Origin: Cymodocea nodosa
Lineage: Eukaryota > Streptophyta > Magnoliopsida > Alismatales > Cymodoceaceae
Direction of reading: 5' to 3'
NCBI GenBank assembly: GCA_036874045.1
Contig: CM072344.1
Span: forward strand, 10,822,501 to 10,886,500
DNA length: 64,000 bases
A program made the translations under genes and the position numbers. This document shows, in pieces, positions 23,386-51,346 of this stretch. Under the pieces are notes generated by a model that worked only from the letters and a program-made list of their open reading frames with translations, searched no databases and was not told the DNA's origin. Position 1 is the first letter of the stretch, and the number at the start of each line of letters is the position of its first letter.

Positions 23386-23766
23386 TCACATATCACATAG
23401 CCTACAAATACCAAAATTTAATCTTATGTTGTAGAAAGTAGTTTCATCTAAGGGTTTTGTAAAGATATCAGCTAATTGATTTTTACTAAACACAAATCCT
23501 AATTTAATTTTTCCTTTGATTACGTTATCTCTTAGAAAATGATGTCTAACTTCTATATGCTTTGCTCTAGAATGCAATACAGGATTTTTGGAAAGATTTA
23601 TTACAGAACTACTATCATAATAAATCTCAATTGTATCATAAGATAATCCAAAGTCTTCTAAAGTTTGCCTTATCCACAGAATCTGAGTGCAACACAATGA
23701 AGCAGCAACATATTCAGCTTCAGTGGTTGAAAGTATTACACAGTTTTGCTTTTTACTAAACCATGA
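23386..23766 (-). pseudogene. RNase H end of pol, copia element E
   Basis: Minus-strand translation: EYVAAS-type motif, CCTQILWIRQTLEDFG, YYDSSSVINLSKNPVLHSRA, KHIEVRHHFLRDNV and KNQLADIFTKPL, the C-terminal RNase H of copia pol. It is cut by insertion of gypsy A; the upstream part continues at 61639. Confidence 0.9.
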
Positions 23767-25746
23767 TGTTTAGAATGAAAAAGTGCATAATATTAACAGT
23801 TAAATGATGATTAATTGCATAATATTTAGCTTATCATATGAGAATTAAGCCATTATGTTATAATTGCACTGTTATAAGCTTTAATGAAAGAATCTACATA
23901 ATTTCAGGGAATTAATGTTAATTTAGTACATTTCTGAATTGTCGATAAATTGCAGACTATAAAATTCTTAAGTATCTGAACTTTCTGTTATTTCGGAGTG
24001 TTATACTACATGTATCGGATAGTATGTTTTAAAAGAATATTTTATTATTTCTTGGAATGCACGTGTTGAAACCTTAATGCATGACTTAAGTGGATTTTCG
24101 GTAAGTTATCTATTAACTATCTGAAATGCATCTGGGCATTGGATAGTTAGGTTCTTAAATGTCTGAAATATCTGAATTTGTTAAGTTAGAATTATGCACG
24201 TGTTGAATTTAAATGCTTTAGTAGATCACGTGAGATGCACATGTTTAACTCGTTAAGTTAGCATAACTGTACGCGTTGAGTTATATGAATACACACTAAG
24301 GTAACGTATTATGTTAGTAGTTTATTTCTTTATTGCACGTGTTTTATGGTTAAATCAACGAAGTAAGTCCATTGAGTTATCTGTAACTCCACGGACCATT
24401 TATTTTCTAATATGTCACTATAGCGATTACAAAAACAGGACATTCGAAGGAAAACCATGATTGCACATATCACGTAGGAATTCACTCATGGAAGGAAGAA
24501 GAAATCACCATCGTTGATATGAATGAAGGAAATCCAACCGATCATCTAAGCAGAAGTAGTTACTACTAAGAAATATAAAAGAAAAGGAGAAAAGACGAAG
24601 AAAGTGTGTGTGTAGAGGTGGAGGACCGCGGTAACTGTAGGAAGCGTTGGAAGTTCCCTGAAGCTCCACACCACCATCACCATAATCACCAACCATCGGA
24701 GGTCTATGAGGATACTTTCCTGATGTTGGGTCGATTCTGAACCAAACACGGTACTTGACAACCATTGTGAGGAGTGATTGCATCGTAGGAAGGGAAGCCA
24801 TTTTCACTAAGCACCGACTCATATCTCAAGAGATCGTAAAACTTCTAGCCTTGGTTTCAGGTTGATGCTAGTATGTTGAGGAAAAGATCATCTTGCAATT
24901 CTAGACTCGCGATTCTATAGGGAGAGGAGACAAGATTGTAAGTGATTAAGTTTTCAATGGTGTAATCGCGTTGCATGTAGTGACGGAAGTATTTACTGTC
25001 AATAGAGATTTTTACATTTCACCTTTCACCCATTTTCATGAACATATCAAAACAAAAATACCAAAAACAACAACTTATCTGTGTTTACATTTAGTATTTA
25101 AGTGTTGTATTGTTTGTTTTGTATTGTGATTAATGTTATCATTGTTAGTATTGTGAATGTTTTATGTTTGTTTGATTCAGAAAATAGAAAATAGTTTTAC
25201 AGTTTACTGAAATTGATTCGTTCCAGATACTTAAAGATTTTAAGGGTTACTATTTGAAATATCTGAATGTTAGTGTTGCTTAATGATAAATCTAATATTA
25301 ACTAGCATTAAAGAACTTATTTGATGTTATTTACAATCTATGGAATCACCCAATGGTTGGCCGAATTCCTCTGTAAATAGTAGTATTTAACTAGAAAGAT
25401 AGACTCGTGGAGTTAACTTAAGTCTATGAGGTTAGTCTATTGAGTTAGCCATAACTCCATGAACTTAGTCTGTTGTGTTAACTGTAACTCAATAGAGTGC
25501 TTAACTGAACACATAAACTCTAATATAAAAATCAAGACAATACATAATTCTTACTCAATCTCTGTGGGATCGACCTGTACTTGCACATAAATATAATATA
25601 CACTATGCACTTGCAGTTAAAATACAAATTGGAATTAATATCTAATTTTTGTGAAAGTTTGTTAATTTACTTCTAAAAGTAATTATTGATATAAGCATAA
25701 AGACAAAGTAAACAAGTTGTTTGATTTAATCTTTCACAACCAAACA
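23767..25746 (+). repeat. 5' LTR of gypsy element A
   Basis: 1980 bp from TGTTTAGAATG to CCAAACA. Candidate TATA box TATAAAAG at 24574-24581. Motif arrays at about 24180-24420 (upstream of TATA) and 25395-25505 (downstream). The primer site follows seven bases after the end. Confidence 0.95.
24180..24420. repeat. Motif array in the gypsy A 5' LTR
   Basis: Copies include AACTCGTTAAGTTAG (about 24247-24261), CGCGTTGAGTTA (about 24271-24282), TCAACGAAGTAAG and CCATTGAGTTATC (about 24355-24383), alongside CACGTG-like cores. It aligns with the copia LTR array at 17515-17640 and lies about 150 bp upstream of the TATA box. Confidence 0.7.
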
Positions 25747-25753
25747 AGTTTTC

Positions 25754-25771
25754 TAGCGCCGTTGTCGGGGA
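25754..25771 (+). other. Primer binding site of gypsy A (tRNA-Asp type)
   Basis: TAGCGCCGTTGTCGGGGA, two changes from TGGCGCCGTTGCCGGGGA, the complement of plant tRNA-Asp used by many Athila/Tat elements. A good splice-donor-like GTAAGT follows at 25790-25795 and is kept in gypsy B (40271-40276). Confidence 0.88.
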
Positions 25772-25852
25772 TTGAGAAGCTAAGAAACTGTAAGTGTTGT
25801 TTTGTTTTAATAGCAAGAGGAGTGTTGTGTGTTTTGTTCAATAATTGAGAAT

Positions 25853-26821
25853 ATGGCATATGCTTATGCTCAAAGATTTCTGAAACTTGTAGTTAGCATA
25901 TGTGAATTCTGCAATTTGGAAGGTCACGACATTTCTGAATGTGTGAAACTGAGACGTTTGTAGATTGTTAGATCACATGAACAACAAATGAATTATCTTT
26001 AATATAATAGATCTAAGTATAAGATTCCTATGGTTTACCCAACTAATGGTCAGCTTAGAATGTGTAATATGTAAAGAGACAAAGAAGTTTGGGATAGGTA
26101 TGATAGACTGGAGCATAGCTTAGAGCAAAACATGAACAAACTAGAACAATATATGTTTCAGCAACAAGAAGTCAACCAATTAAACTATAGAGAAGAATAT
26201 TCTGAACCTAAAATTGATATCATTTATGAAATTGGAAAAACCATAATGAAAATTAATCAAAAATTGAATGCAATGAGATTAGATGATCTAGAAAGAAAAC
26301 TAAAAGTATTGGATGAATATACAATGAAATTACAAGTTATGCAATAGGAAAACACAAACGAAAACTTTCATGCTACAGATCTGCATAATTTGCAAGACAA
26401 ACAAACAAAAGAAAATACTAATGCGATAAAATTTAAAGAATGCAATTTAAAACTAAAAATAGTTGAAGATCATAATCACGAAAATCATATACAAGAACAT
26501 CAAGAAAGTAACGAAAATCTAGAAGATGTATGTATAACATTAAGATCTAGAACTGATATACCACCAAGAATTCAAAATGAAAATAATATGAAGGTAGATA
26601 AGAGCAAAAATCAAAATGATAATGAAAATGTAATAACTGAAAATATAGAAATTAATGAAGAAAAATCTAAATCTAAAAATGAGACTAAAAATGATCAAAC
26701 AAATCAAATGAAAGAAAAAGAATCTTTTAAATCACAATCATTAGCACCCTATCCTAAAAGATTACAACAAACATTTCCTGAAAAACAAGAAAAAATTAGA
26801 GAAATTTTTGAAAAAGTATAA
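25853..26821 (+). pseudogene. Zinc knuckle and coiled-coil leader of pol, gypsy A
   Basis: Starts at ATG 25853 (MAYAYAQRFLK) about 80 bases after the primer site. A CCHC-like knuckle, CEFCNLEGHDISEC, comes within the first 35 residues, then a charged helical stretch (DRLEHSLEQNMNKLEQYMFQ, LDDLERKLKVLDEYT) and a Lys/Asn/Glu-rich linker to the protease. In usual Athila/Tat elements this knuckle follows the Gag domain, which here is absent in front and lies at 34409-37297. Broken. Confidence 0.75.
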
Positions 26822-27602
26822 GTTAAGATTCCTTTGTTAGACTTATTGTAAAAAATGCCACCTTGTGCTAATTTCTTAAGGATTGGTGTACTAAGAAAAG
26901 AAAGCGAAAAGTTTTAAGGAAAGTCTTTTAACTAAGCAAAGTAGTTCCCTATTTCTGCCACAAATTCCTAAAAAGTTATCTGATCTTGGAATTCCTGTTA
27001 TATCATGCACCATAGGAAATATCATTCTAGAAAGAACCTTAATAGACCTAGGTGCAGGTATAAATGTTATGCCAAGTGATATATTTGCATCCTTAGGATT
27101 AAAAGGCTTAATCCCTATTAGGATTGCTATTCAATTAGCTGATAGAAGTATAAGATACCCTAGAGGAAAAATAGAGGATGTCTTAATTAAAATCAAAAAC
27201 TTCATATATCCTATTGATATTGTAATTTTGGATTCCCAACAAATTAAGCATAAAAACAATGATACATCTTTAATTTTGGGAAGACCATTTTTAGCAACAT
27301 TAGGGGTTGTTATTAATTGTAAAACTTGAGTAATGAAGTTAGCATATGGTAATGAGGATACTCAACTAAACATTTTCAAACCAGAAATGTTTGAGGAGTT
27401 AGAAATGTCCTTACATACTATAGACCTTTTAGAGGATGAAAGAGATATGCTAGATGATGTGATTCAAGAAGAATTAAATAAGCAACTCGATCTTGAAACT
27501 TTAGAAGAAAGTGAAAACATAAATATAGAAGGAGATCAAGAAGAAATTAATTTAGAAAATGATGATGTTCAATTAGGAGCCCTAGCTTCTGATGGGCAAT
27601 AG
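26822..27602 (+). pseudogene. Protease region of gypsy A
   Basis: Contains FLPQIPKKLSD-type lead, the active site LIDLGAGINVMPSDIFASLG near 27038-27098, YPRGKIEDVLIKIKNFIYP and the LGRPFLAT motif near 27275, the standard Athila/Tat retropepsin. Followed by an acidic linker up to RT. Broken, few breaks. Confidence 0.88.
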
Positions 27603-28776
27603 ATAGAATTAAAGCCTTTACCTCCTAAATTAACCTATATATTTCTGAAAGAAAAATGAACATGTCCAATCATTATTGCTTCAGATTTAAAAGAGGATCA
27701 AATTGCTAAATTAAAAGATGTAGTAAAAACTTATAAAGAAGCAATAGGATGGACTATGACTGATATAAAAGGGTTAAGTGCAACTTTATGTTATCACCAC
27801 ATATATTTAGAAGAGAATGCTAAACCAGTTTGAATTCCTGAGAGAAAATTAAATCCAAACCTTAAAGAAGTAGTCAAGAAGGAAATAGTGAAATGGTTAG
27901 ATAATGACATAATTTATCCAATTTTTGATAGCTCATGGGTTAGTCCAATCCATGTAGTTCCTAAGAAATCAGGATTAACAGTTATTAGGAATGAAAGTCA
28001 AGACTTGATACCTACTAGAATTCAATCAGGCTGGAGAGTGTGTATAGACTATAGAAAGCTGAATGTTGTGACTAGGAAAGATCATTTCCCCTTACCTTTC
28101 ATAGATCAAATGCTAGAAAAATTAGCAAGGCAAGAATATTTTTATTTCCTAGATGGATATTCAGGATATAACCAAGTCCCAATAGCATTAAAAGATCAAG
28201 AGTAAATAACTTTCACCTGTCCTAATGGAACTTATGCTTTTAAGAGAATGTCATTCGGATTATGCAATGCACCAACCACCTTTCAAAGGTGTATGCAAGG
28301 GCATATTCATTAGAATGACTAAAGATTTTTTAGAAATATTTATGGATGATTTTTCTATTTATGGAACTTCATATGAAGTGTGTTTAAACAATTTAGACCA
28401 AGTATTAAAACGCTGTGTGGAAAAAAGTCTGGTTCTAAATTGGGAAAAATGTCACTTCATGGTTAAACAAGGAATAGTCTTGGGACATGTTGTTTCAAAG
28501 AAAGGGTTGGAAATAGATAAAGCTAAAATATAAGTAATTTCTAATCTACCATAACCTAAATCAGTAAAAGATATTAGATCATTTCTAGGACATACTGGAT
28601 TTTGTAGAAGATTTATTTAAGATTTTAGCAAAATAGCTAAACCTTTAACTAATCTATTAAAAGATGTCCCATTCAACTTTGATAGAAATTGCAAAGAAGC
28701 ATTTTTCAAGCTTAAAACTAGCTTAATTTCAACTCCTATAATACAAGCACCTGATTGGAGCCATCCATTTGAATTA
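27603..28776 (+). pseudogene. Reverse transcriptase of gypsy A
   Basis: Motifs: VVPKKSGLTVIRNE, WRVCIDYRKLN near 28032-28065, LDGYSGYNQVPIA, the catalytic IFMDDFSIYG near 28338-28367, LVLNWEKCHFMVKQGIVLGH, and the thumb/connection up to RNase H. The MDDF variant is typical of the Athila/Tat branch. Homologue in gypsy B at 42110-43230. Broken. Confidence 0.9.
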
Positions 28777-29150
28777 ATGTGTGATGCATTTGATTTTACT
28801 GTAGGAGCAGTATTGAGACAAAAGATAGAAAAATCTCCTAAAGTGATTCATTATGCAAGCAAAACTTTAAATGATGCTCAAGTTAATTACACAACTACTG
28901 AAAAAGAGTTGTTAGCTGTAGTGTTTGCCTTAGAAAAGTTTAGATCATATTTGATTGGAGCTAAAGTGATAGTATACATGGATCATTCAACTTTAAAACA
29001 CCTAATAGCAAAGAAAGAGACCAAACCTAGATTGATCCGTTGGATATTATTATTACAAGAATTTGATCTAGAAATTAAAGATAGAAAAGGTTGTGAGAAT
29101 GTAGTAGCAGATCATTTATCAATATTACAAGTAGAAAAATCAAATATTGA
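28777..29150 (+). pseudogene. RNase H of gypsy A
   Basis: [68 protein letters not shown] and the VADHLS end motif: a standard gypsy RNase H that removes RNA from the RNA-DNA hybrid. Reads through cleanly into the integrase region. Confidence 0.92.
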
Positions 29151-29339
29151 AATTAAGGATAATTTTTCTGATAAACAATTAATGACCATCAACACAATGT
29201 CTTGGTATACAAACATAGTTAATTACTTAGTTATTGGTTTAACACCTAAGGATTGGAATAGACAAGATAAGAAATTGTTCTTTTCAAGAGTAAAATATTA
29301 CTATTGGGAAGACCCATACTTATTTAAGAAATGTTCTGA

Positions 29340-30463
29340 TCTGGTTTTAAGGAGGTGTGTTCCAGAACTGAATATCAGAGCATATTATCTTTCTACCATG
29401 ACCAAGCATGTGGAGGGCATTTTGATTTAGGGAAAACTACTGCTAAAATTCTGCAATGTGTATTTTATTGGCCAACACTATTCAAAGATGCTCATAAATA
29501 TTGCTTAAATTGTTTAAGATGTCAACAAATAGGAAGAATATCAAAGAGGAATATGCTGCCTCTTAATCCTAATGTTGAGGTTGAAATCTTTGATGTGTGG
29601 GGAATAGATTTTATGGGTCCATTTCCTATGTCTAATCAATTTAAGTATATATTATTGGGGGTGGATTATGTATCTAAATGGATAGAAGTTATTCCTACAA
29701 AAACTAATGACAACAAAGTGGTAATACATTTTATAAAAACTAATATAATTGCTAGATTCGGAATACCTAAAGCTATTATCAGTGATAGAGGAACTCATTT
29801 CTATAATAGAAGTTTTGAAGCCTTAATGAAGAAATATGGAGTAAATCACAAAATTGCAATATCATATCATCCGCAAACAAGTGGACAAGTAGAAAATGCA
29901 AACAAACAAATTAAGTTAATCTTAGAACAGATTGGGCTAATAGATTGATAGATGCATTTTGGGCTTATAAGGCAAGCTTAGGTATGTCTCCTTTTAGGCT
30001 AGTATATGGAAAAAGTTCTCATTTACCAATTGAAATTGAACATAAAGCTTATTGGGCATTAAAAACTCTGAACACTAATTTAAATGAAACTGCTAAGAAT
30101 AGAAAAATGTAATTGATTGAATTAGAAGAATTTAGGAATGAAGCTTATTCGAAAACTGTAAGAGAAAATGAAGTTCTAGCATGACAGGAAAATTATTCCA
30201 AAAACCTTTGAAATAGGACAAGAAGTATATCTTTACATGACTAGATTCCATAACCATCTAGGAAAATTAAGATCTAGATGGGCAGGACCTTACATAGTTC
30301 AAAATATTTATCCCTATGGAGTTATTGAAATTGAAAATCCTAAAAATCAAAATATATTTAAAGTAAATGGACAAAGACTTAGACCTATCTTGAAGATATC
30401 AAAAAGTTCCTTTGGAATTATAGAAGAAGTAAGAGTAGAAGACTACTCGAGCTTTACTTTGTA
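29340..30463 (+). pseudogene. Integrase of gypsy A
   Basis: HHCC zinc domain ([30 protein letters not shown]), DDE core (VWGIDFMGPFPMS, VSDRGTHF-type ISDRGTHFYNRSF, YHPQTSGQVENANKQIK) and the C-terminal HLGKLRSRWAGPY with GVIEIENPK. No chromodomain is seen, as expected for Athila/Tat. Gypsy B lacks most of this region. Broken, few breaks. Confidence 0.92.
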
Positions 30464-30510
30464 AGAAATTTTCTAAGTATATATAAATAAAAAAAAACCT
30501 TTATTTAAAT

Positions 30511-30830
30511 ATAGTCACGGTTCAACCGAAAGGAATTATCGGTTTTACCGAAACATATTTTAAACGAAAAAAATCCTTGCGGTTCAACTGACAGGATCCA
30601 TCGGTCTGACCGAAACATAAAAACATAAAAAAATCTATATATTATATTTAGTTTAATGTTGGTGTTACCGAAGTATAATATTGGTTTAACCGATAGAGAA
30701 AAAAAAGAAAATATTTAGTTTCGGTTCAACCGAGGAATATAACGGTTTGACCAAAAAATTTTAAAATGTTGGAAAATTAAGAAACGGTTAGACCGAGAAT
30801 TCTTCGATCTTGACCGAAGTAAAAAGTATT
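30511..30830. repeat. Array of CGGTTNAACCG palindromes after pol in gypsy A
   Basis: About ten copies of a short inverted motif: CGGTTCAACCGA, TCGGTTTTACCGA, CGGTTCAACTGA, TCGGTCTGACCGAA, GGTTTAACCGAT, TCGGTTCAACCGAG, ACGGTTTGACC, ACGGTTAGACCGA and TCGATCTTGACCGA. They lie in AT-rich, otherwise featureless DNA. The family differs from the TAACTCAACG array that follows. Confidence 0.75.
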
Positions 30831-30861
30831 ATTATATGCATTTTTATTAGATATAACTTTA

Positions 30862-31016
30862 TGAAAAGTTCGTTGAATTACACTTACCTCAACGAACTTA
30901 CTCCGTTAAGTCTAGGATAAGTTAACGAACTTACCCCGTTGAGTTAACTATAACTCAATGGAGTACTGTAGTTAAGTCCACGAACTTAGTCCGTGGAGTT
31001 AACCGTAATTCCACGA
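30862..31016. repeat. TAACTCAACGRA-type inverted array before the gypsy accessory ORF
   Basis: Consecutive pairs such as CTCAACGAACTTACTCCGTT, GTTAACGAACTTACCCCGTT, TAACTCAATGGAG and TCCACGAACTTAGTCCGTGG, each a short imperfect palindrome. It ends about 60 bases before the TATA-like element at 31077. Similar arrays lie before gag and in the LTRs. Confidence 0.75.
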
Positions 31017-31074
31017 ATGAGAGAGCGAGAGTTTGTGTGGGAAATGACTCGATTACCTGCCTAAACTTAAGGCT

Positions 31075-31098
31075 TATTTATACATAACTTAGGGTTTA
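31075..31098 (+). promoter_or_regulatory. Candidate promoter of the gypsy accessory ORF (TATA and telo-box)
   Basis: TATTTATAC at 31075-31083 followed by TTAGGGTTTA at 31089-31098 (reverse of a telo-box), about 80-100 bases before the first ATG (31174). The copia accessory ORF has the same pair of elements. Inferred only. Confidence 0.45.
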
Positions 31099-31173
31099 GG
31101 GGCATTATCTGTAGAATTATTTAGAACTTAGACCAATAGAGTTCAAAGCGATTCCGTTCCATTGCGTAACTCC

Positions 31174-33426
31174 ATGATGGGAAAGATGACACTAGAATTC
31201 TAGGAGGTCGTAGTTGACACTTTAGAATTTCTTAAAGATTCGGAGGAATGGCACACAAGGCAAAAAATCAGGAATACGATGAGGGAAAATGAGCTTCAAA
31301 AGGTAGAATCTGACATTTTCTACTAGAGGAAAGTGTTAGTTGATTTAGGCATAAAAATACCTTAGATGATGGAAACTAGAATCAAAGTTGTTACGGAAGT
31401 TGTTGTAAGTAGAGAGAGAAGAATCAGGCCAAATAATGAAGTTGCCCTAGAATTGATTCAACATAAGTCCCGGCTCCAATTCAAAAGACACATAGGTAGA
31501 CGGGCTCAGTGGGCAATCTGGGAGCAGCAAAGGAAAGAAAATGATGAACGAGCAATTGAAGAACAAGAGGAGTTGACTGCTGAAAGACCTGCCCTTGAGG
31601 AACAGCAACTATGACCTTCAATTCCACCACCAAGGTTGTTAGAAAGAGCAGCAATTTTGGGGCCTTCTACGAAGGAAGAAATAAGAGAATTTCAAGAATT
31701 GGTTCAAATTGGAAAATACCAAGGAGAACCAGAAGAGTTGGTAGTAGTTATAGCACATCTAGTGTTTGATGCACGGTGCAAAAAGAGGGCTGTAGAAAAG
31801 TTGAAAGCCCAATATAAAATTAAAGTTGAACAGCATCAAGAAGCCACTACCTGACCTATTGTAAGAGGAGCTGAAGTTGGTCCTTCGAGACCAACAATTA
31901 TAGAAAAATTTAAACAAGAAGAGCCAGTACTTATGGCTCAAAGGCCTGTAGAGCCTATTTTTGTGGATTTAATCTTAGAAGAAGAAAAAGAAGACCAGGC
32001 ACAATTAATCAGAAGAATGAAAGGAAAAGAGATAGTGCTTGAACATCAAGAAGAGATTAAATCTAAGGTGCAAATATCAGTAGGGCCTGTAGAGCCGATT
32101 TTTGTAAACCTGCTATCCGATTCTAAGGAGGAGCAGGAGCAACAACAGCAAGAGCAAAGAGAAGAAGAAAAACAAGTTGAAACTAATATGCAACTTGTAC
32201 AAGCAGAAGAAACAGAAATTAGGACTGAAGCTAATTTGCCTGTAACTCCATCCCAATCTGCCATAGAATTAGAAAGAACAGTGACATTGCAGATTGGTAG
32301 TCAGGAGGAAGAAGTAAAAGAAGAAACTAAACAAGAAGCTAAATAAGTACATATGGAAAGAGATGACTCGACAGATTCCACTAAAGAGCAAGAAATTCTT
32401 CAACAAATTTTGGAAAGAACTCAAGATAGAGTGGAGAGTTCTGCCGGCTCACCACCATAGATAGAAGCAAAAGCAAAAATGCAAGAATCTTCAAAGCATT
32501 TTCAGTCTATTCAAGTTCAGCACATGGAAGAGGAAGTTCAAGAACAAACCCCTCTAGAGCAACAAATTTACATTCTTGACCTGACTAAAGCAACAGTTTT
32601 AAATAAAGTACACTTTTGGAGTCAGGAAGCATATAATAAATACCAAAACATTAGGGGTTATGATATCATATACAGTAGACCAGTAAATTGGGACGGGATG
32701 CAAGAAATTAAGGATTTGTTTGAGTTCCAAGGTCTACTGCAGTTTATTTCTCAAGAAAGAGGGCATGTAGTATATGAGAATCTAGTGCCCTACTTTTATG
32801 CAAATTTAAGAGAAAGAGAAAGAGGATTAATTTCCAACATGGAGCAAGTTGGTGTATAGATAACACCAGAGCTTCTCCATAACATTTTAGGATTGAAGAA
32901 TGAAGGACTAGAAATTCTGGAAAGCACAACTACAGTTGAGTGGACAAAACAGATCATAAATGAGTTTTTAGCTATCAATCCTAATGTGTCATTATTAAAT
33001 AGACTGAAGCATTTAAATGGTAAAGCACACATGATAGCTAACATTTTGATTAAGAATGTCTACCAACGACAAAGCCATGATATAGAACTAAGTCAATTTG
33101 TCAAATGGGCCACATATGCAGTTGTGAACATAATTCAGATAAATTGGTCTGCAGTTTTTATCTCCAAGCTGAGAGTAGTAAAGAAGAAATTATTTTATGG
33201 AGATTTGATTTCATTGCTGATGGTGGACAATATTGATTTCAAGAAATGGGCATCCAAAAGAATAAGATCAAGAACCATTTCAGTGAAAGAATGCAGAAAT
33301 TATGTTGGTGCAGAGCTTGCTGAACCTTTTGGAGGAATTACAGGAGCTGTAGAGAGGATAAAACAATTAGAGCATCAATTAGAAAAACTCTAGAAGGAAG
33401 TAGATGAACTTATGAGAAAAGATTAA
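31174..33426 (+). pseudogene. Accessory ORF of gypsy A (plant transposon protein-like)
   Basis: Region of about 750 codons in one main frame between pol and gag. N-terminal half: charged helical and glutamine/glutamate-rich (EEQEQQQQEQREEEKQVE near 32128-32180). C-terminal half: folded-looking domain with FWSQEAYNKYQNI, MQEIKDLFEFQGLLQFI, YENLVPYFYANLRE, HNILGLKNEGLEI, MIANILIKNVYQR, IIQINWSAVFISKLR and KKLFYGD. These motifs line up with the copia accessory ORFs (IANILHAN, IQINWFDVFISQL, KLFFGD). Resembles the putative plant transposon protein family. Function unknown. Several breaks. Confidence 0.75.
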
Positions 33427-33885
33427 ATTGTATTGTTCGTCTACTTGTATATATGTGTATGAAAAATATCTGATTGATTGTAATGTAAACTATTCATATA
33501 AATGAATGTATGTTTTTCAGATATGTTTGCATTTATGTTTGAGAATGATATAATGGATGAACTATCTAGAATATTATATAATTGTTTGAACAAGATGCAA
33601 GATTGTTTAAAAGATATACAAATTTGCCAAATGATAGGATTAAATGCAAGATAACTGGTTAATGCCTGAAAATATCTACATGTTGCAAAGTAAAATATAA
33701 ATTCTACATAACATGAAGTGAACTACAAGTTAAATATTTATATAATGTTCAGATTTAAATGAGTTTTTAATTAGAACATTGTAATAATGACATGTATTTA
33801 ACTTTATTTAAGTAGACAAAATTAGGAAAAAAATATATATATAGAAGTTAATACGAGGAGTAAGTTTTGGAAATTTGCCAAGTGT
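33427..33885 (+). other. Non-coding gap between accessory ORF and motif array, gypsy A
   Basis: AT-rich, no coding potential or recognisable signal beyond being alignable with gypsy B 48363-48666 plus 51719-51855. Looks like a 3' untranslated region of the accessory ORF. Confidence 0.6.
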
Positions 33886-34100
33886 TAACTCAACGAAGTA
33901 AGTTCGTCGAGTTAACCTTAACTCCACGAGGTCAATAGTACAATATAAGGTCACTCCGTTGAGTTATCTGTAACTCAACGAAGTTAATCCGTGGAGTTAG
34001 CAACAGTAATTGAAGCTAGTCCGTTGAGTTAACTGTAACTCAACAAGGTTAGTTCGTGGATTAAGCTAAATGGTTATTCTTTTAGCTACGAACGAAACTT
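33886..34100. repeat. TAACTCAACGRA-type inverted array before the gypsy gag
   Basis: The best example is at 33955-33982: TCCGTTGAGTTA, four bases, then TAACTCAACGAA, a 12-bp inverted repeat with one mismatch. Others: CTCAACGAAGTAAGTTCGTC, TCCGTGGAGTTAG, GTTGAGTTAACTGTAACTC and a longer ACGAACGAAACTTCGTGGG near 34088-34106. Kept in gypsy B (51856-52085). It ends about 130 bp before a TATA box. Confidence 0.78.
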
Positions 34101-34227
34101 CGTGGGTTTAGCGGTTACTGAAAATTTGAAATTAGAAGTGGAACACGTACCCATAAAAATAGGAACCACACTACATGTTACAAGACACGTTCTTGCAACG
34201 AGATTCATTTGCTTTATGGACGTGCAT

Positions 34228-34235
34228 TATAAATA
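34228..34235 (+). promoter_or_regulatory. Candidate TATA box upstream of the displaced gag, gypsy A
   Basis: TATAAATA in the context CATTATAAATATAG, about 175 bases before the gag ATG (34409) and preserved in gypsy B at 52203-52210. Just downstream of the motif array. Would give the gag module its own promoter; inference. Confidence 0.45.
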
Positions 34236-34408
34236 TAGAATAGAATGTTATTTACGAGTTATCAGCACTAGAGAAAAGAAAATTCGTTGGGGAACTAGAA
34301 GGAGAAGCAGCTGATTCAACTTCATCCGTCAACAGCTATTTACCGAATATAAAGCTTCAAACTAGTATGTAATTAATCTTTTGCTATTTTACTTTATGTT
34401 AAGAGTTT

Positions 34409-37297
34409 ATGAGCACATGGATTCGTTCTCCTAGGACTAAATGATTAGTAAGAACACCTACACAGGATTATTCAACATAGAGATGTACAGAAATATTTTT
34501 TGAATTGGACTTTAACGAAATCCTTAGGGGTGTAGTGTTGAACTATATTTTTAGCTCAAGCTTTACTATAAGTGCACAGTTCTTTTGGTGTACATGGCAA
34601 ATACAGGTCATTCTTCCACAAGGATTGTGTTTATGACTTAATCAAATATTACTCAACTTGTTCTTCAAGCTCTTAGGTATACTTCAGTAAATTAATGACA
34701 TGTGAATGTAGAATAATCAAAATTAACACAAGCTCACAAATCATGTAGTTTCAAGGCAATGTGTAGTGGAAAATGGTGATGTGAATCAATTTCTTTACTT
34801 GTAAATCTATCAACTTATTCAATTATAACATGCACACAAGTTCCACGTGATTTCAGAAGTGATATCAATGCATCAATATTGAGGAAAGAAAAATAAAACA
34901 AGAAGGTTCAATAGACTATACTACTCTATTCTAATTTATACTAAATGCATGCAACTATGCTATTTGCTAATCTAGCTAAACTATACTATACTACTTGCAT
35001 TAGAAATTCTTTTTAGAGATTGATTAGGACAAAATGTGATCAATATAAGATATAACAAACTTAATTAACTACTGAAATTAAAATTAACAACTAGATATAA
35101 GTGATAGGTTCTTCATTCAAATGAACATCAACACTTATTTTCTTGTTCTTTCAATTCACACCTTCTTCTCAAATGTGCCAAGCCACCATTGGTGAGTGTC
35201 ATTCACTCGTGTGAAAGCCTCACCAACAGCCCCAACAGTACACGTGAATAGAGGATGCAAATTAGAAGTTGAAAAGAAGAATTGAACATTCATATACATT
35301 CATTGAATTCTATCTAGCTAAGAAGACATATAATTGAGATGTTCACCATCATTTCTCATCAATTCTTCCTTCTATACAAGAAAATAATAAACTCTAAGAG
35401 TTGTCACTACCTTAGGAGCTTCTTATCTTCTTCTCTAGAGCTTTGAATTCAATGGAACTTGGCAGCAACTCCACCTCCAAGCTTGTACGTCTTCTCCTTA
35501 GCCCTTGGAATGGTGAATAGCATGAATGGATGGTCTCTCTTTGGAAGCACAAGCCTCACCTCCAAGCTTCTTCTCCTCTTTCTTTCTCTTGTTGGAAGCA
35601 CCAAGTTGTTGGCTGAAATTCCTCTCCCCTTGTATTTATGTTGTTTTGTCTTCTCTCTCTTTGATGTGGCACCTTGGTTTTATCACCAAGCTAATAAGAT
35701 GCCTAGATCTAGGAGGGCCAATAAGGTGTTGGCATGTCCTCTTCTTTAAAGTTTAGTCCACCAACTTTTGATTCTTTACATCTTCTTTGGTCTTTTGCAT
35801 TAAGCTCCTCCCATATGTATGTTACCTACAATTAATGGAAGTTGAACTCCAAGAGACGTTAGCCAACATAGGACATTCAAAATAAATCAATGTGTTCCAT
35901 GTAAAATTATATCCAATGGGGGATGCACTTGTTAATTAAATTTCTATATTGCACTATATTTCAAGACTTATATTACCCATAATTAATATCATTTATCCAC
36001 CATAGATATATAATATCATGCAAAATTACTTATAAAATTCATTAAAAATGGGCAAAATTAAAGCTTGAACATGTAGCTAACCTTTCTTTAAAAGAGAATG
36101 AAGATACAGCTACTCTAGTAGAGAAACCATTAGGGGAAATTCTGTATCCTGAATTAGTTGATGAACCTTCATGTATTCGATTGCCAAACTTTGAGAGAGA
36201 TAGGTTTGAATTGAAATCTAATTATATCAGTCAATTGCCACATTTTCATAGATTAGAAAGAGAGGATGCTTATTATTTCCTTAGAGAATTTAACGAAGTT
36301 TGTCAAATGATGAAAATGCCGAACATGAGTATTGATGCTATTAAACTTAGATATATTTCTTTTGCTTTAAAAGACATAGCTAAGAGATGGTTATATACTT
36401 TGTCACCTGATTCAATTTCTGCATGGACTGAATTTTGCTCTATTTTTCTAGAAAAATATTATCCAACAAATCAAATAATTAAAAAGAAAAATGAAATATT
36501 AATGTATAGCCAAAAACAAGGGGAATCATTCTGGAAATATTTTGAAAGATTTAAAGATTTATTGACTCAATGTCCACATCATGCAATGAGTAAAGCACAA
36601 TTAATAGGTATAATTTATGAAGGCATAGATATTTCAACGAAATCTTTTAGAATCTACTTATTATAATGGATTTTTAAAACTATATAGTGAAGAAGCATGG
36701 GCATATTTAGAAAACTTTGCAAAAATAACTGCATAGTGGGAAAACTCGGTTGAAGCTATTACAAATAAAAGAATATTGCCAAGGGGAATGTATGAAATAG
36801 ATTCAAGCGCTATGCTTGAAGTTAAATTAACTGAATTAACAAAGAAAATGGAAGAGTTATCATTAAATCAAAAGCTAGCAGAAAATAATGCAAATATTAA
36901 TGATCTAGATATTATTTATGCTAGAAACTAGAAAGATAACTTTGGAAATTCTTATAACCCTAATTGAAGGAATCACCTGAATCTATCTTAGAGAAACAAT
37001 AATTTCAAGGGAGGAGAAAATATAAATGACAAAAATATAAGTTATGAAACTTTAATTGAACAAGGATCTAGAATAGAGAAATTAGAAAAGATAATCCAAT
37101 AATTAAACAATCGTCTAGATCTTGTATTTGGAAATGCTGCAATTCAAAATCAAAATATAAATAGAAATATACCCCTTAGATAGAAGGAATCAATGGAAGT
37201 TAGACCTACTAGAGGATTGCCAATGTAAGCAACACCTAACCTTGTTAATAGAACTGTTAATGAAATTGATACCTCCTTTGGGAGGGTAGTTGAATGA
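34409..37297 (+). pseudogene. Gag domain of gypsy A, located downstream of pol
   Basis: Interrupted by the solo LTR 34536-36071. Translation after it shows LYPELVDEPSCIRLPNFERD, FHRLEREDAYYFLREFNEVC, the Gag core (IKLRYISFALKDIAKRWLYT, WTEFCSIFLEKYYPTNQ, GESFWKYFERFKDLLTQCPH), then a coiled coil and NRNIP-type tail. This is the retrotransposon Gag domain (PF03732-like) of Athila/Tat elements, but it sits after integrase and the accessory ORF. The full-order homologue in gypsy B is 52384-53722. Broken. Confidence 0.85.
34536..36071. mobile_element. Solo LTR of an unrelated retrotransposon
   Basis: 1536 bp bounded by TGTTGAAC and GCTTGAACA (short terminal inverted repeat TGTTSAA) with a perfect 5-bp duplication TGTAG (34531-34535 and 36072-36076). 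Gypsy B has an uninterrupted copy of this site (around 52506-52516), which proves the insertion. It contains no pol. A 96-residue hydrophobic open frame (35459-35749) is within it and is probably incidental. Family unresolved; superfamily cannot be told from an LTR alone. Confidence 0.85.
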
Positions 37298-37515
37298 AAC
37301 AATATAACTGAAGTCACTATGTATAATATAGTAAGTACAAAAATATAAAAAGAAAAAAATGTAAGTTTAATTATAGTTAGTAGTATCGTAGAGTTATTAC
37401 TTAACTCAACAAATTTAGTCCGTTGAGTTATGATCTAACTCCATGAGGGTGTGAAGTAGTTATGTTAATTTTGTCTCTACTAAATTTTTGATTATGTTAT
37501 GTAGAATCACAACAA
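37298..37515 (+). other. Gap between gag and F-box region, gypsy A
   Basis: Short AT-rich region with a two-part motif (TTAACTCAACAAATTTAGTC and CGTTGAGTTATG, about 37402-37434). It has splice-like signals: GTAAGT near 37332 and a pyrimidine-poor acceptor ending TATGTAG at 37504, 11 bases before the F-box ATG. Matching signals are in gypsy B. Confidence 0.5.
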
Positions 37516-38189
37516 ATGGAATTGATGAAATTACCACAAGATGCACTGAGGGAAGTACTGAGTAACCTTTTAGCTAGAGATCTGTGCAAATTGTGTTGTG
37601 TATCAAAGGAAATCAAAAACTGTGTTAGAGAAAAATATTTTCATGGACTACAAGCTGCAAAAATGACTAAGATTAGAGATGGATTTTTATGGAAGTCATT
37701 TAATCATAGTTCAATCAGCTATGAATATCTGAATATGGAAGAAATTGCTGGAATTCCACCCAATACATTAGAAGGAATAGATCATATTATGGGAATGGAT
37801 GAAGGATTTATTATATACAGAACCAAACCAAGGTATGCAATTCTGTTACCTGATATTTTGATTAGAAATCCTATCACAAGAGAAGAATGGAATATAGGAA
37901 GGCCTAAAAGATATGAAGTACCAACTAAAAATTGAGGGTTAGCTTTAATATTTTCTGATAAAAATTTGACCATTCTTGAAAAATTATATTATTGGAGACC
38001 AATTGGAAATTGGGATGAAGATTTATGCTTAAGTGTGTATAATTTTCTGAATAGATCTTGGACTGAAAATACTATGATATATCTAGGATAGAAAGCATTA
38101 ATTAACAGCATACATGTCATACTTGATGGATATATATATCTAGTCACAGATATATCAGTTGCATTTAGATTTGATTTATACATAGTAAG
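37516..38189 (+). pseudogene. F-box gene carried by gypsy A, 5' part
   Basis: Starts MELMKLPQDALREVLSNL, then ARDLCKLCCVSKEIKNCVRE: a recognisable F-box (residues about 5-45), which in host proteins binds SKP1 in SCF ubiquitin ligases. It continues with sequence resembling an F-box-associated domain (FLWKSFNHSSISYEYLNMEE, LLPDILIRNPITREEWN). Gypsy B is inserted at 38189/38190 and the remainder resumes at 57403. It lies inside the LTR pair, so it travels with the element. Broken, few breaks. Likely captured from the host, inferred. Confidence 0.8.
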
Positions 38190-40226
38190 TATTTAGAATG
38201 AAAAAGTGCATAATATTAACGATTAAATGATGGTTAATTACATAATTTCTAGCTTATCATATGAAAATTAAGCCATTATGTTATAATTGCATTGTTATAT
38301 GCTTTAATGAAAGAATCTACATAATTTTAGGAAATTAGCATTAATTTAGTACATTTATGAACTGTTAGTGTAAATTGCAGGCTATGAAATTCTTTAGTAT
38401 CCGAATTTTCTGTTATTTTGGAGAGTTATGTTTAATGTACCGAACAGTTATGTTTTAAAAGCTTAAAGAATATTTTATTATTTCCTAGATTATACGTGTT
38501 GAAACTACAATGCATGACATAAGTGGATTTTCGGTAAGTTATTTGTTAACTATCTGAAATGTATCTGAGCATTGGATAGTTAGGCTTGTAAGTGTCTGAA
38601 ATATTTGAACTTGTTAAGTTAGAATTATGCACATGTTGAATTTAAATACTTTAGTATATCATGTGAGATGCACATGTATAACTCATTAAGTTAGCATAAC
38701 TATACGCATTGAGTTACATGAATACACACTAAGGTAACGCGTTAGGTTAGCAGCTTATTTCTTTAGTGCACATGTTTTATAATTAAATCAATGAAGTAAG
38801 TTCGTTGAGTTATCTGTAACTCCACGAACCATTTATTTTCTAATATGCCACTGTAGTAGTTATAGAAACAGGACATTCGAAGGAAAACCATGATTGCACG
38901 TATCACGTAGGAAATCGCTCGTGGAAGGAAGAAGAAGTCACCATCATTGTTATGAATAAAGAAAATCCAACTGATCATCGAAGCAGAAGTAGTTACCACT
39001 AAGAAATATAAAAGAAAAGGAGAAAAAATGAAGAAGAGTGTGGCTAGTGTGTGTGCAGAGGAGGAGGACCGCGCTAACTGCAGGCAACGACGAAAGTTCC
39101 CTAAAGTTCCACACTACCATCACCACCATGACCATAATCACCAACCATTGGAGGTCTGTGAGGATACTTTCCTGATGTCGGGTCAATTCCGAGCCAAACA
39201 TAGTGCTTGACAACCACTATGAGGAGTGATCGCATCGCATGAAGGGAAGCCATTTTCACCAAGCACCGACTCATATCTTAGGAGATTGTAAAGCTTCTAG
39301 CCTTGGTTTCGGGTTGATGCCAGTATGCTGAAGAGGAGATCAACTTGCAATTTTAGACTCGCAATTCTATAAGGAGAGGAGACAAAATTGTAAGTGGTTA
39401 AATTTTCAATGGTGTAATTGCGTTGCATGTAGTGACGGAAGTTTTTACTATCGATAGAGACTACTTTTACATTTCACCTTTTGCCCATTTTCATGATCAT
39501 ATCAAAACAAAAATACCAAAAACAACTTATCTGTGTTTATAGTTAGTATTTGAGTATTGTATTGTTTGTTTTGTATCGTGATTAATGTTATCATTGTTAG
39601 TGTTGTGAATGTTTCATGTTTGTTTGATTTAGAAAATAGAAAATAGTTTTACAATTTACTAAAATTGAATCATTCTTGATACTTAAAGATTTTAATGGTT
39701 ACTATTTGAAATATCTGAATGTTAGTGTTACTAAATGATAAATCTAATATTAACTAGCATTAAAGAGCTTAATTGATGTTATTTACAATCTATGGAACCA
39801 CCCAATGGTTGGTCAAATTCCTTTGTAAATAGTAGTATTAAATTGTATAGATAGCTTCATTGAGTTAATTCAATTCCACGAGGTTAGTTTGTTGAGTTAG
39901 CTATAACTCAACGGAGTGCTTACTGAATATATAAATTTCATTATTAAAAATGGAACAATATACAATTCTTGCTCAATTCTCTATGGGATCGACCTATACT
40001 TGCACACAAATACAATATACACTGTGCACTTGCAGTTAAAATACAAATTGGAATTAATATCTAATTTGTGTGAAAGATTGTTTGTTGACTTCTAAAAAGG
40101 AATTACTGATAATCATAAAGATAAATTAACTAAGTTACAAACAAAAGTTAACAAGACAAACAAGTTTTCTAGCGCCATTGCTGGGGAACTAAACAAGTTC
40201 TCTAATGCCACCTAAAAACCCAATCA
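38190..40226 (+). repeat. 5' LTR of gypsy element B
   Basis: 2037 bp. It is homologous to A's LTR up to 40162 (...GACAAACA), then extends a further 64 bp that include an old primer-site-like sequence (TAGCGCCATTGCTGGGGA, 40170-40187) and end AACCCAATCA. The 3' LTR carries the same 64-bp extension, so it belonged to the LTR before insertion. Motif arrays at about 38610-38830 and 39855-39930. Confidence 0.9.
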
Positions 40227-40233
40227 AGTTTTC

Positions 40234-40251
40234 TGACGTCGTTGTTAGGGA
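40234..40251 (+). other. Primer binding site of gypsy B
   Basis: TGACGTCGTTGTTAGGGA, a diverged tRNA-Asp-type site (TGGCGCCGTTGCCGGGGA), seven bases after the LTR end and in the same context (AGTTTTCT before, ATTGAG after) as in A. Confidence 0.8.
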
Positions 40252-40333
40252 ATTGAGTAGCTAAGCAACTGTAAGTGTTGTTTCGTTTTAATAGCAAGTG
40301 GGGTATTATGTGTTTTCTTCTATAATCGAGAAT

Positions 40334-41330
40334 ATGGCATATGCTTATGCTCAAAGATTTTTGAAACCTGTAGTTAGCATATGTGAATTCTGCATATTGG
40401 AAGGTCACGACATCTCTGATTGTTTGAAACTGAGACAGTTGCAGATGGTTAGAGCACATGAACAACAGATGAATTATATTCAATATAATAGAGCTAAGTA
40501 TGAGAATCCTATAGTTTACCCAACTGATGGTCAGCTTAGAATGTGTAATATGTTGAGAGACAATGAAGTTTGGGATAGGTATGACAGACTGGAGCGTAGT
40601 TTAGAACAAAACATGGACAAACTAGAACAATATATGTGTCAGCAATAAGAAGTCATCCAATTAAACTATAAGGAAGTATATTCAGAACCTAAAATTGATA
40701 TTATATACGAAACTGAAAAAACTATAATGAAAATCAATCAAAAATTGAATGTAATGAGATTAGATGATCTAGAAAGAAAACTAAAAGTATTGGACGAGTT
40801 TACAACAAATTACAAGTTATGCAACAAGACAATACAAATGAAAACTTTAATGTTATAGATTTGCAAAATTTGCAAGACATACAAACAACAGAGAATACCA
40901 ATGCAATAGAATTTAAAGAATGCAATTTAAAACTAAAAACAGTTGAAGATCATAATCACGAAAATGATATACAAGAACATCAAGAAAGTAACGACAATCT
41001 GAAAGATGTATGTATAACACTAAGATCTGGAACTAATATACCCTCAAGAATTCAAAAAGAAAGTAATATAAAGATGGGTAAGAACACAAATCAAAATGAT
41101 AATGAAAATATAATATCTGAAAATATAGAAATCAATGAAGAAAAGTCTGAATAAAAAAATGAGACTAAAAATGATCAAACAAATCAAATGAAAGAAAAAG
41201 AATCTTTTAAATCACAATCATTAGCACCCTATCTTGAAAGATTACAACAAACATTTCCTAAAAAAAAGAAAAAATTAGAGAAATTTTTGAAAAAGTACAA
41301 GTTAACATTCCTTTGTTAGACTTATTGTAG
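40334..41330 (+). pseudogene. Zinc knuckle and coiled-coil leader of pol, gypsy B
   Basis: MAYAYAQRFLKPVVSICEFC then GHDISDCLKLRQL (CCHC-like knuckle), YDRLERSLEQNMDKLEQYM helix and a Lys/Asn-rich linker. Same position right after the primer site as in A, confirming that no Gag core precedes pol in this family. Broken. Confidence 0.78.
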
Positions 41331-42110
41331 ACAATGCCACCTTGTGCTAATTTTCTTAAGGATTGGTGTACTAAGAAAAGAGAGAGAAAAGTTTTAGCTG
41401 AGCAAAGTAGTTCCTTATTTCTACCACAAATTCCTAAAAAGTTATCTGATCCTGGAATCCCTATTATATCATGCACCATAGGAAATACCATTCTAGAAAG
41501 AACCTTAATAGACCTAGGTGTAGGTATAAATGTTATGCCAAGTGATATATTTGCATCCTTAGGATTAGAAGGCTTAATCCCTACTAGGATTGTTATTCAA
41601 TTAGCTGATAGAAGTATAAGATACCTTAGAGGAAAAATAGAGGATGTCTTAATTAAAATCAAGAATTTTATATATCCTATTGATATTGTAATTTTGGATT
41701 CCCAACAAATTAAGCATAAAAATAGTGATACATCTTTAATTTTGGGAAGACCATTTTTAGCAACATCAGGGGCTGTTATAAATTGTAAAACTAGAATTAT
41801 GAAGTTAGCATATGGTAATGAGGATACACAATTAAACCTTTTCAAACCAGAAAAGTTTGAAGAGTTAGAAATGTCCTTACATACTATAGACTTTTTAAAG
41901 GATGAAGGAGATATGCTAGATGATGTGATTCAAGAAGAATTAAATAGGCAACTTAATTCTGAGATTTTAGAAGAAAGTGAAAGTGTAAATGTAGAAGGAG
42001 ATCAAGAAGAAATTAATTTAGAAATTAATGATGTTCAATTAGGAGCTCTAGCTTCTGATGGGCAACAGTTAGAATTAAAACCTTTACCTCCTAAATTAAC
42101 CTATATATTT
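41331..42110 (+). pseudogene. Protease region of gypsy B
   Basis: Long readable stretch 41334-42404 with SSLFLPQIPKKLSDPG, LIDLGVGINVMPSDIFASLG, RGKIEDVLIKIKNF and LILGRPFLATSGAVINC: retropepsin of the Athila/Tat type, followed by the acidic linker (LEESESVNVEGDQEEINLE). Homologous to A 26822-27602. Confidence 0.88.
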
Positions 42111-43236
42111 CTGGAAGAAAAACAAACATGTCTAATCATTATTGCTTCAGATTTAAAACAGGATCAAATTGCTAAATTAAAAGATGTAGTAAAAACTTAT
42201 AATGAAGCAATAGGATGGACTATGACGGATATAAAAGGGTTAAGTGCAACTTTATGCTGTCACCACATATATTTAGAAGAGAATGCTAAACCAGTTAGAA
42301 TTCCTAAGAAGAGATTAAATCTAAACCTTAAAGAAGTAGTCAGGAAGGAAATAGTGAAATGGTTAGATAATGACATAATTTATCCGATTTCTAATAGCTT
42401 ATAGGTTAGTCCAATCCATGTAGTTCCCAAGAAATCAGGATTAACAGTTATTAGGAATGAAAGTTAGGACTTGATACCTACTAGAATTCAATCAGGCTAA
42501 AGAGTGTGTATAGACTATAGAAAGCTGAATGCTGTAACTAGGAAAGATCATTTTCTCTTACCGTTTATAGATCAAATGCTAGAGAAATTAGCAGGGCAAG
42601 AATATTTTTGTTTCCTAGACGGGTAATCAGGATATAACCAATTTCCAGTAGCATTAGAGGATCAAGAGAAAACAACTTTCACCTATCTTAATGGAACTTA
42701 TGCTTTTAAGAGAATGTCATTCAAATTATGCAATGCACTAGCCACCTTTCAAAGGTGTATGCAGGGCATATTCACTAGAATGACTGAAGATTGTTTAGAA
42801 ATATTTATGGATGATTTTACTATTTATTGAAATTCATATGAAGTGTGTTTAAATAATTTAGACCAAGTATTAAAACGCTGTGTGGAAAAAACTCTGGTTC
42901 TAAATTGGGAAAAATGTTACTTCATGGTTAATCAAGGAATCGTCTTGGGTCATGTTTCAGAGAAGGGGTTGGAAGTAGATAAAGCTAAAATAGAAGTAAT
43001 TTCTATCTCCCAGACCTAAATTAGTAAAAGATATTAGATCATTTCTAGGGCATGTTGGATTTTATAGAAGATTTATTAAAGATTTTAGCAAAATAGCTAG
43101 ACCTTTAACTAATCTATTAAAAGATGTCTCATTCAACTTTGATAAAAATTGCAAAGAAGCATTTTTCAAGCTTAAAACTAGCTTAATTTCAACTCCTATA
43201 ATTCAAGCACCTGATTGGAGCCATCCATTTGAATTA
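42111..43236 (+). pseudogene. Reverse transcriptase of gypsy B
   Basis: Same motif series as A's RT: IKGLSATLCCHHIYLEENAK, the CIDYRKLN region near 42510, the MDDF catalytic region near 42806, LVLNWEKC and the [19 protein letters not shown] connection near 43040-43095. More damaged than in A. Confidence 0.88.
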
Positions 43237-43890
43237 ATGTGTGATGCATCTGATTTTGCTGTAGGAGCAGTGCTAGGACAGAAGATAGAAAAATCTCTTA
43301 GAATGATTCATTATGCAAGAAAAACCTTAAATGATGCTCAAGTTAATTACACAACTACTGAAAAAGAGCTGTTAGCTATTATGTTTGCCTTAGAAAAGTT
43401 TAGATCATATCTGATTGGAGCTAAAGTGATAGTATACATGGATTATTCAGCTTTAAAACACCTAATAGCAAAGAAAGAGACTAAACCTAGATTGATCCGA
43501 TGGATATTATTATTACAAGAATTTGATCTAGAAATTAAAGATAAAAAAGGTTGTGAGAATGTAGTAGTAGATCATTTATCAAGATTACAAATAGAAAAAT
43601 CAAATATTGAAATTAAGGATAATTTTCATGGTGAACAGTTAATGACCATCAACACAATGCCTTGGTATACAAACATAGTTAATTACTTAGTTACTGGTTT
43701 AACACCTAAGGATTGGAATAGATAAGATAAGAAATTGTTCTTTTCAAGAGTGAGATATTACTATTGGAAAGACCCATACTTATTTAAGAAATGTCCTAAT
43801 TTGGTTTTAATGAGGTGTGTTCCAGAAACTAAATATCAGAGCATATTATTTTTCTGCCATGACCAAGCATGTGGAGGGCATTTTGGTTCA
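43237..43890 (+). pseudogene. RNase H and start of integrase, gypsy B
   Basis: [55 protein letters not shown], then the lead to the integrase zinc domain ([11 protein letters not shown] near 43852-43884). Element F begins right after; the rest of integrase is not present in B. Confidence 0.88.
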
Positions 43891-44860: not shown

Positions 44861-45330
44861 TATAGCTGATGTAGCTGCACCAACAATTGGAGTGCCCTGC
44901 AAAATGTATAAGGGACCAGATTTGGTTCCTTTCATAACAACTAACGAGCCTTTCAGTATGCTGATCTTCCCCTCACCACCTGTATATCTATAACCCTTAG
45001 CATCAAGGGCCATCAGTGAGATCAGACTTTTTCCAAGCTTTGGGACGTGTCAAACGTCCTCTAGAATTCTAACTATGCCATCATGTAGTTAAATTTTATA
45101 GTGCCCACACCAACTCTAGAACACACATCATCATTAGCCAAGGTCACTTGACCACCCTCCACCTGCTCATAGGTGTCAAAATACTCCCTAGTAGGAGTCA
45201 TATGATGTGAAGCTCCTGAGTCCATAATCCATTGATCATCAGAATAGGCACTGCAACAAACTGTAAGAGAAAAGTCATCACCTGACGCAGAACTGGTTTC
45301 TACCACAGCAGCCTTTCCTTTGTTCATAAG
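44861..45330 (-). pseudogene. Protease region of copia remnant F
   Basis: WIMDSGASHHMTPTREYFDT with downstream LANDDVCSRVGVGTIKF and the VWHIPKLG-type linker. Equivalent to 14540-14960 in C. Confidence 0.88.
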
Positions 45331-51325: not shown

Positions 51326-51346
51326 CAACATCGCTCTCATACCAGT

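Follow-up and report, generated by a model that had tools for sequence, protein, structure and literature searches.

A domain common to the 3′ accessory ORFs of Sirevirus (Ty1-copia) and Athila-like (Ty3-gypsy) retrotransposons in Cymodocea nodosa

The extra ORFs found near the 3′ end of SIRE and Athila retrotransposons have long been labelled envelope-like, and their origin has been left unexplained. A 64,000-nucleotide stretch of Cymodocea nodosa DNA, referred to here as the window (C16:10822501-10886500, from an assembly of 374.6 Mb in 28 contigs), is made up of nested, stacked LTR retrotransposons, in which a Ty1-copia and a Ty3-gypsy family both carry an ORF of this kind. The locus raises the question of whether these two ORFs, named here accC (copia) and accG (gypsy), are related and, if so, how elements of two superfamilies came to share them. 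The best explanation overall, to which we assign a probability of roughly 0.7, is that a mobile module of the PF20167 type moved between Sirevirus and Athila-like elements.

The nested elements and the bearers of the two ORFs

Sirevirus copy B lies on the minus strand in two parts, separated between RT and RH by gypsy element 1: one, at 61.6-64 kb, holds IN and RT, and the other, at 19.9-23.8 kb, holds RH together with the 3′ ORF. Its pol region (61565..64000, minus strand) includes PR at 63554-64000, IN at 62797-63565 and RT at 61685-62661 as located by tblastn, with Pfam matches to RVT_2 (E 3.7e-9) and SH3_retrovirus (E 6e-23). The RNase H portion (23389..23769, minus strand), which gypsy element 1 separates from RT, is 87% identical to the stretch after the copia RT in locus L064; a Pfam search with it gave no match at E 0.001, and its name follows from its location and from its likeness (43% identity) to what comes after the RT of a second copia family. 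Gypsy element 1 (23767..61638, plus strand) is nested in copy B, is bounded by LTRs at 23767-25746 and 59659-61638 with the 5-bp target duplication CATGA, and is itself interrupted by gypsy element 2 (38190..57402, plus strand; target duplication GTAAG). The latter is split twice by the second copia family, one copy of which occupies 48667-51718 (target duplication TATAT). The same family interrupts the 3′ ORF of Sirevirus copy A at 11336-16830 (target duplication GTAGA). A further Sirevirus at 1085..6268 (minus strand) includes gag, PR, IN and RT (PF14223, E 1.5e-28; rve, E 1e-13; RVT_2, E 2.8e-68), and its 5′ LTR/primer-site junction is at 6268-6253.

Three other arrangements were observed in the window. 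Nucleotides 1-2109 form a 1012-base inverted repeat, with arms that are 95% complementary and an 85-base spacer, consisting of two opposed copies of a Sirevirus RT region. Between copies A and B, at 17043-19127, opposed Sirevirus LTR stretches join at about 18589/18590, as read from the match table. The second copia family contains direct repeats of 187 bases: a tandem pair spans 16035-16408, and a single unit lies at 46345-46531.

The earlier note on this DNA had given coordinates, strands and four motif pairs for four stretches of accessory ORF, all of which were recovered, the pairs in identical order. The accessory ORF of gypsy element 1, accG copy 1 (31174..33426, plus strand), has 10 in-frame stops including the terminal one; its C-terminal PF20167-like domain, shared with accC, spans 32602..33318 (plus strand), the end coordinate being taken from the alignment. 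Copy 2 of accG (46955..48362, plus strand), in gypsy element 2, is frameshifted and its N-terminal half is partly missing; tblastn placed its pieces at 46962-47243 (accG_N), 47412-47798 (accG_M), and 47802-48053 and 48046-48327 (accG_C). The Sirevirus 3′ ORFs, accC copy A (8773..11032, plus strand, shared domain at about 10032-10860) and accC copy B (19661..21831, minus strand, shared domain at about 19886-20478), are both frameshifted. All four window copies are thus broken by stops or frameshifts. Open frames exist outside the window, as in locus L066, where accG is open for 710 amino acids, and accG and accC each have at least 150 matches in the 375-Mb genome.

The bearer of accC shows the published hallmarks of the Sireviruses (SIRE). 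Discounting the mapped insertion at 23767-61638, copy B has the order IN-RT-RH-accC (the latter at 21735-19886) on the minus strand, and copia RT and RH also precede accC in L064 and L069, the end of RH being about 1.7 kb before the ORF. In L065 a gypsy fragment of opposite orientation lies in the accC spacer, and the roughly 3 kb upstream showed no copia pol. One Sirevirus hallmark is a cluster of multiple polypurine octamers, AGGGGGAG, behind the ENV-like gene (PMC2829016). Two such octamers follow accC copy B, at 19463 and 19129 (19129..19470, minus strand), and at least one was found in 24 of 30 accC loci (L034-L063), often as a pair at about +390 and +735 from the end of the domain, versus 1 of 30 accG loci (L004-L033). 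In additional loci it was present in two of six for accC, four having at most 309 bases there, and in none of three for accG. The octamer also occurs in the LTRs of the second copia family (11523, 16645, 48854 and 51534) and alone is not decisive. Another hallmark is the 5′ LTR/PBS junction CA + A(T/G)TGG + TATCAGAGC (PMC2829016). The form CA-AGTGG-TATCAGAGC is found at 6268-6253 (minus strand) in the neighbouring Sirevirus, the 5′ ends of copies A and B being outside the window; the RT of this neighbour is 89-92% identical, piecewise, to that of L064.

In gypsy element 1, PR, RT, RH and IN occupy 26895..29945 (plus strand; RVT_1, E 1.5e-5; RT_RNaseH, E 5e-35; rve, E 1e-15), with RT at 27834-28202, RH at 28621-29427 and IN at 29340-29945, which is the gypsy pol order. 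The first of these is what we take to be PR from a sequence motif, and a Pfam search of its counterpart at 41331-42401 gave no match. The assignment of the two bearers to different superfamilies, made in the earlier note, holds in the window, where the copia order IN-RT-RH-accC stands against the gypsy order PR-RT-RH-IN-accG. Elsewhere, accG is preceded by gypsy RT, RH and IN in L066, by PR and part of RT in L067, and by IN in L070. A 602-amino-acid piece of L066, possibly short of the IN C-terminus, includes one RNase H and IN, and Chromo and RVT_3 were absent from it at E 0.1. We call the bearer of accG Athila-like, a label based on sequence motifs and on a primer site that we take to resemble the tRNA-Asp type. 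The Athila ORF-1 domain PF03078 was not detected in accG pieces at E ≤ 10 or in the full-length proteins of L066 and L067 at E ≤ 1; it is a minority, not a defining, feature of Athila, being reported in the extra ORF of 16% of these elements (PMC6317226).

Behind accG, element 1 carries a gag (Retrotrans_gag, 36046..36663, plus strand, E 2.7e-19) followed by an F-box ORF (37492..37932, plus strand, PF00646, E 1.9e-8). The element 2 counterparts are a gag at 52498-53719 (plus strand, E 2.8e-12) and an FBA_1-like stretch at 54432-54938 (plus strand, E 0.027, under the cut-off). Both gag and F-box have at least 150 genome matches. Outside the window and among the matches listed, there are 18 accG-gag pairs within 20 kb, 12 of which have gag at +1.4 to +2.1 kb from accG, and the F-box lies +1.4 to +5.0 kb from accG in 13 of 15 pairs, all 33 accG-gag and accG-F-box pairs being on the same strand. 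Of the nine IN-gag pairs within 15 kb among the matches listed, four have gag at +5.0-5.1 kb. A gag match is found at the downstream edge of 20 of the 30 accG loci L004-L033, and a weak one in one more. The part of element 1 that lies in the window ahead of PR, from the 5′ LTR onwards, gave no gag match at E 10. The order of this family appears to be LTR-PR-RT-RH-IN-accG-gag-F-box-LTR, with gag displaced from the front of PR. A dN/dS of 0.35 was obtained from eight F-box copies selected by frame length, of which six have an open frame of 354-379 amino acids starting at the Met. It could be speculated that a retroelement F-box protein counters host silencing. In the open-licence literature searched we met neither a gag in 3′ position nor an F-box gene described for a retroelement; one survey, according to the text available, dropped elements with an unexpected domain order (PMC6317226), and such orders may therefore have been passed over.

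The shared C-terminal domain and its affinity to PF20167

Judged by sequence comparison, the C-terminal regions of about 235 residues of accG and accC are homologous. The accG protein of L066 and the accC protein of L064 align with 35% identity over 236 amino acids (156 bits, E 4e-51). When accC was shuffled 1000 times, 995 of the shuffled sequences gave an alignment, the best scoring 24.3 bits, and the reversed sequence scored 15 bits. The similarity is not one of low complexity or coiled coil, which the earlier note had named as the case against it. The pairwise and profile comparisons that it had proposed both gave significant similarity, the latter (hhalign, 8 accG versus 5 accC rows) covering 232 columns at a probability of 100%. 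The domain can be followed in the window itself, where the pieces 32860-33390 (plus strand) and 19931-20260 (minus strand) are 46% identical over 78 amino acids (E 2e-22), 32461-32856 (plus strand) and 20182-20832 (minus strand) are 38% identical over 82 amino acids (E 1e-19), and the copia copy at 10032-10718 (plus strand) is matched by accG pieces in tblastn at E 1e-15 and 8e-18. The N-terminal halves of accG and accC gave no BLASTP match at E 10 and an hhalign probability of 0.1%. The similarity is confined to the C-terminal domain, in line with the earlier description of a C-terminal half that lines up; the two proteins have this domain in common, but their N-terminal halves are unrelated and the term "same ORF" was too strong.

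Protein searches beyond the genome found no relatives in a first round, and in a second one a single 115-amino-acid ENA fragment that is 94% identical to accC across 37% of the query. A PDB sequence search returned nothing with an accG piece and one chance-level match (E 0.84) with an alignment as the query, and phage records searched with accC gave no match. Two AlphaFold models reached mean pLDDT values of 49.2 and 42.9, a low confidence, and Foldseek returned nothing at E ≤ 0.001 for the first of them, so that no fold is claimed.

The domain appears to be a distant relative of PF20167 (Transposase_32), not filed as a member. The accG domain matched this profile with a best E of 2.7e-6, seven of the eight rows giving a match at E ≤ 10; of the 16 rows of a mixed alignment, 15 matched at E ≤ 1. 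The domain of accG from L066 scored 26.6 bits (E 6.6e-6, profile positions 6-167 of 177) and that of accC from L064 18.5 bits (E 0.002; E 0.005 at full length), all accG and accC scores seen being lower than the curated cut-off of 45 bits; the full-length accG proteins of L066 and L067 had no Pfam match at E ≤ 1. The resemblance to a "putative plant transposon protein" domain suggested in the earlier note is upheld in that PF20167 matches both domains, but below its curated cut-off.

Other PF20167-like ORFs are present in the genome. The profile had 31 genome matches, and among the 24 that were read the nearest relative was accG for 17 and accC for 4, while 2 belonged to the type found in L071 and the remaining one was L068. 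The L068 sequence scores 45.0 bits and has weak traces of gypsy RT and RH upstream. accG and accC are 32 and 28% identical to L071 (105 and 87 bits) and 27 and 28% identical to L068 (89 and 76 bits), bit scores that are lowered because the pieces of these two loci are shorter. A 17-row tree placed accG and accC in one group each, and the two stood together apart from the other PF20167-like rows with a support of 95/91; this tree covers one genome with three other rows from two other lineages, is midpoint-rooted and includes one long branch flagged by the tool. At two loci (L071:50-1717 and L090/L093, the ORF being on the minus strand) the third-lineage ORF directly adjoins the beginning of an LTR of the accG-bearing gypsy family, which is on the opposite strand. 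The flank on the ORF side is shared by the L071 and L090/L093 loci at 76-85% identity, as either an old duplication or a portion of a larger unit.

Nesting, descent, capture or exchange

Elements inserted within one another could lead to an ORF being credited to the wrong element, and the window is heavily nested, with Sirevirus copy A lacking a pol of its own within it. This reading is refuted by the location of accG and accC with respect to their own type of pol throughout the genome. Positions were compared in lists of 149 matches each, the window's own row having been removed from 150. Among these matches, eight pairs of accG and gypsy IN lie within 12 kb, and in five of them accG follows IN on the same strand at 3.4-3.7 kb; of the five pairs of accC and copia RH within 12 kb, four have accC at 3.6-3.7 kb behind RH. 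Random placement (2000 draws) gave a mean of 0.11 for each, with maxima of 2 and 3, and mixed accessory/pol pairs within 12 kb, among the same matches, numbered three with spacings of 6.5-11.7 kb. The counts are small because the lists hold the best 150 of thousands of candidates. These distances are fixed and specific to each superfamily, the octamer AGGGGGAG follows accC in 24/30 loci versus 1/30 for accG, and the two domains, with differences in 65% of their positions, are not a single gene counted twice. A nesting artefact is, in consequence, extremely improbable.

The identical position behind pol in both superfamilies would agree with a domain that Ty1-copia and Ty3-gypsy had each inherited vertically from their common ancestor. 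In the same elements, however, where the accessory domain is 35% identical over 236 amino acids, IN is 24% identical over 126 amino acids (E 6e-6), the RH piece has a best E of 1.5, and a 123-amino-acid gypsy RT piece had no match to either copia RT piece at E 10. Since pol is far less alike than the accessory domain, vertical descent is very unlikely and was rejected. The extra ORFs have, besides, been described as much more heterogeneous than pol (PMC6317226).

The earlier note had left two routes, exchange between elements or capture on two occasions. With vertical descent so unlikely, the choice between these two remains, and the grouping of accG with accC in the 17-row, one-genome tree favours exchange. 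Capture of the domain on two independent occasions, the source being a single family of host genes or another PF20167-bearing transposon family, would account for the unrelated N-terminal halves and could have drawn on the other PF20167-like ORFs of the genome. On the other hand, the match between accG and accC (35%, 156 bits) is closer than that of either to L071 or L068, the two group together at 95/91, and both are located in sense behind pol. We regard double capture as unlikely without being negligible.

According to the preferred explanation, movement of a module between element types, a soluble domain of about 235 residues belonging to the PF20167 superfamily would be a mobile accessory module of plant LTR retrotransposons, located in sense between pol and the 3′ LTR in Sirevirus and in the Athila-like family alike. 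It would have moved between element types after the superfamilies separated, the possible routes being nested insertion and, at the level of packaged RNAs, template switching or recombination. Each element may afterwards have kept or gained its own unrelated N-terminal half.

Selection, possible function and known systems

The stop-free copies of both ORFs show purifying selection. The dN/dS was 0.16 for 13 accG copies (mean dS 0.43) and 0.25 for 5 accC copies (mean dS 0.24), ratios that the choice of open copies may have lowered somewhat and that decay after insertion raises. A membrane helix usually needs a mean hydropathy of 1.6. The highest 19-residue means were 1.21 (accG, L066) and 1.02 (accC, L064), and on this simple hydropathy scale no transmembrane segment was detected in one accG copy, one accC copy and one N-terminal piece of accC. 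Basic runs similar to nuclear localization signals, such as RRAKR and RRKVR, are found in both proteins and are weak as evidence. At residues 233 and 279 of the L066 accG (window counterparts in 31855-32343) there are hydrophobic-acidic motifs, FVDLILEDEEEE and FINLLFESEEEQ, within the N-terminal half, which we take to resemble SUMO-interacting motifs.

The location between pol and the 3′ LTR has been the traditional argument for considering such ORFs envelope-like (PMC7264820), in which case they would serve movement between cells. An envelope role is unlikely because no membrane segment was found in any of the three sequences examined; we consider it improbable, and such a function is unsupported. 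Tentatively, both proteins may instead be nuclear helpers acting in trans, most likely anti-silencing or chromatin-directed and not components of a membrane envelope. Within the nucleus they would either counteract silencing on behalf of their element or direct complexes to chromatin.

A wider proposal, for which we put the odds a little short of even, is that the "envelope-like" genes of SIRE and Athila represent one exchangeable module of the PF20167 type, soluble, under selection and nuclear, which acts in trans and possibly serves more than one family. If this is true, part of the "unrelated" extra ORFs of SIRE share their origin with those of Athila, and a common selected domain would give both ORFs one testable origin and one testable function.

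The presence of PF20167 in an Athila accessory ORF has already been published (PMC11728184), and the link between SIRE and Athila through this domain is apparently new; no report of it was met in the open-licence literature as far as its accessible text goes, including PMC11963269, PMC1142308 and PMC2774666. The 3′ accessory ORF of sunflower Athila 14 resembles accG in its sense orientation at the 3′ side of an Athila (gypsy) element and in its partial similarity to PF20167, and it is predicted to be nuclear, with an NLS (PMC11728184). Compared by description, the accG family differs from it in the addition of a downstream gag and F-box, and the available part of that account mentions no copia counterpart.

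The counterpart of accC is the eORF-3′F or ENV-like gene of SIRE, which likewise lies in sense behind pol and is followed by AGGGGGAG octamers; it is described as very heterogeneous, of unknown origin and with transmembrane and coiled-coil segments (PMC6317226, PMC3414828, PMC2829016). Unlike the gene so described, accC has a sequence tie to a gypsy ORF and no detected membrane segment. One survey distinguished 19 groups of SIRE ORFs that resemble one another barely or not at all, and questioned whether these ORFs have a function (PMC6317226); the origin of the extra ORF has been called unknown (PMC3414828).

An extra domain fixed in a plant gypsy lineage, as accG is, has been reported for the AlkB-type domain of orchid Ty3/gypsy elements, a case that differs in involving one superfamily only (PMC9289625). 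The same source lists 15 uncommon domains across 121 angiosperm genomes, 15 in Gypsy and 0 in Copia, in a chart from which well-described ones (e.g. ATHILA) were omitted. A precedent for sharing as such is found in bdelloid rotifers, where the same ORF3 types occur in unrelated groups of retroelements and the authors infer gene sharing (PMC5408684). The rotifer ORF3 differs in belonging to animals, in being enzymatic (esterase, exonuclease) and in not being of the PF20167 type; with accG and accC, plants would join the organisms in which retroelement superfamilies share a gene.
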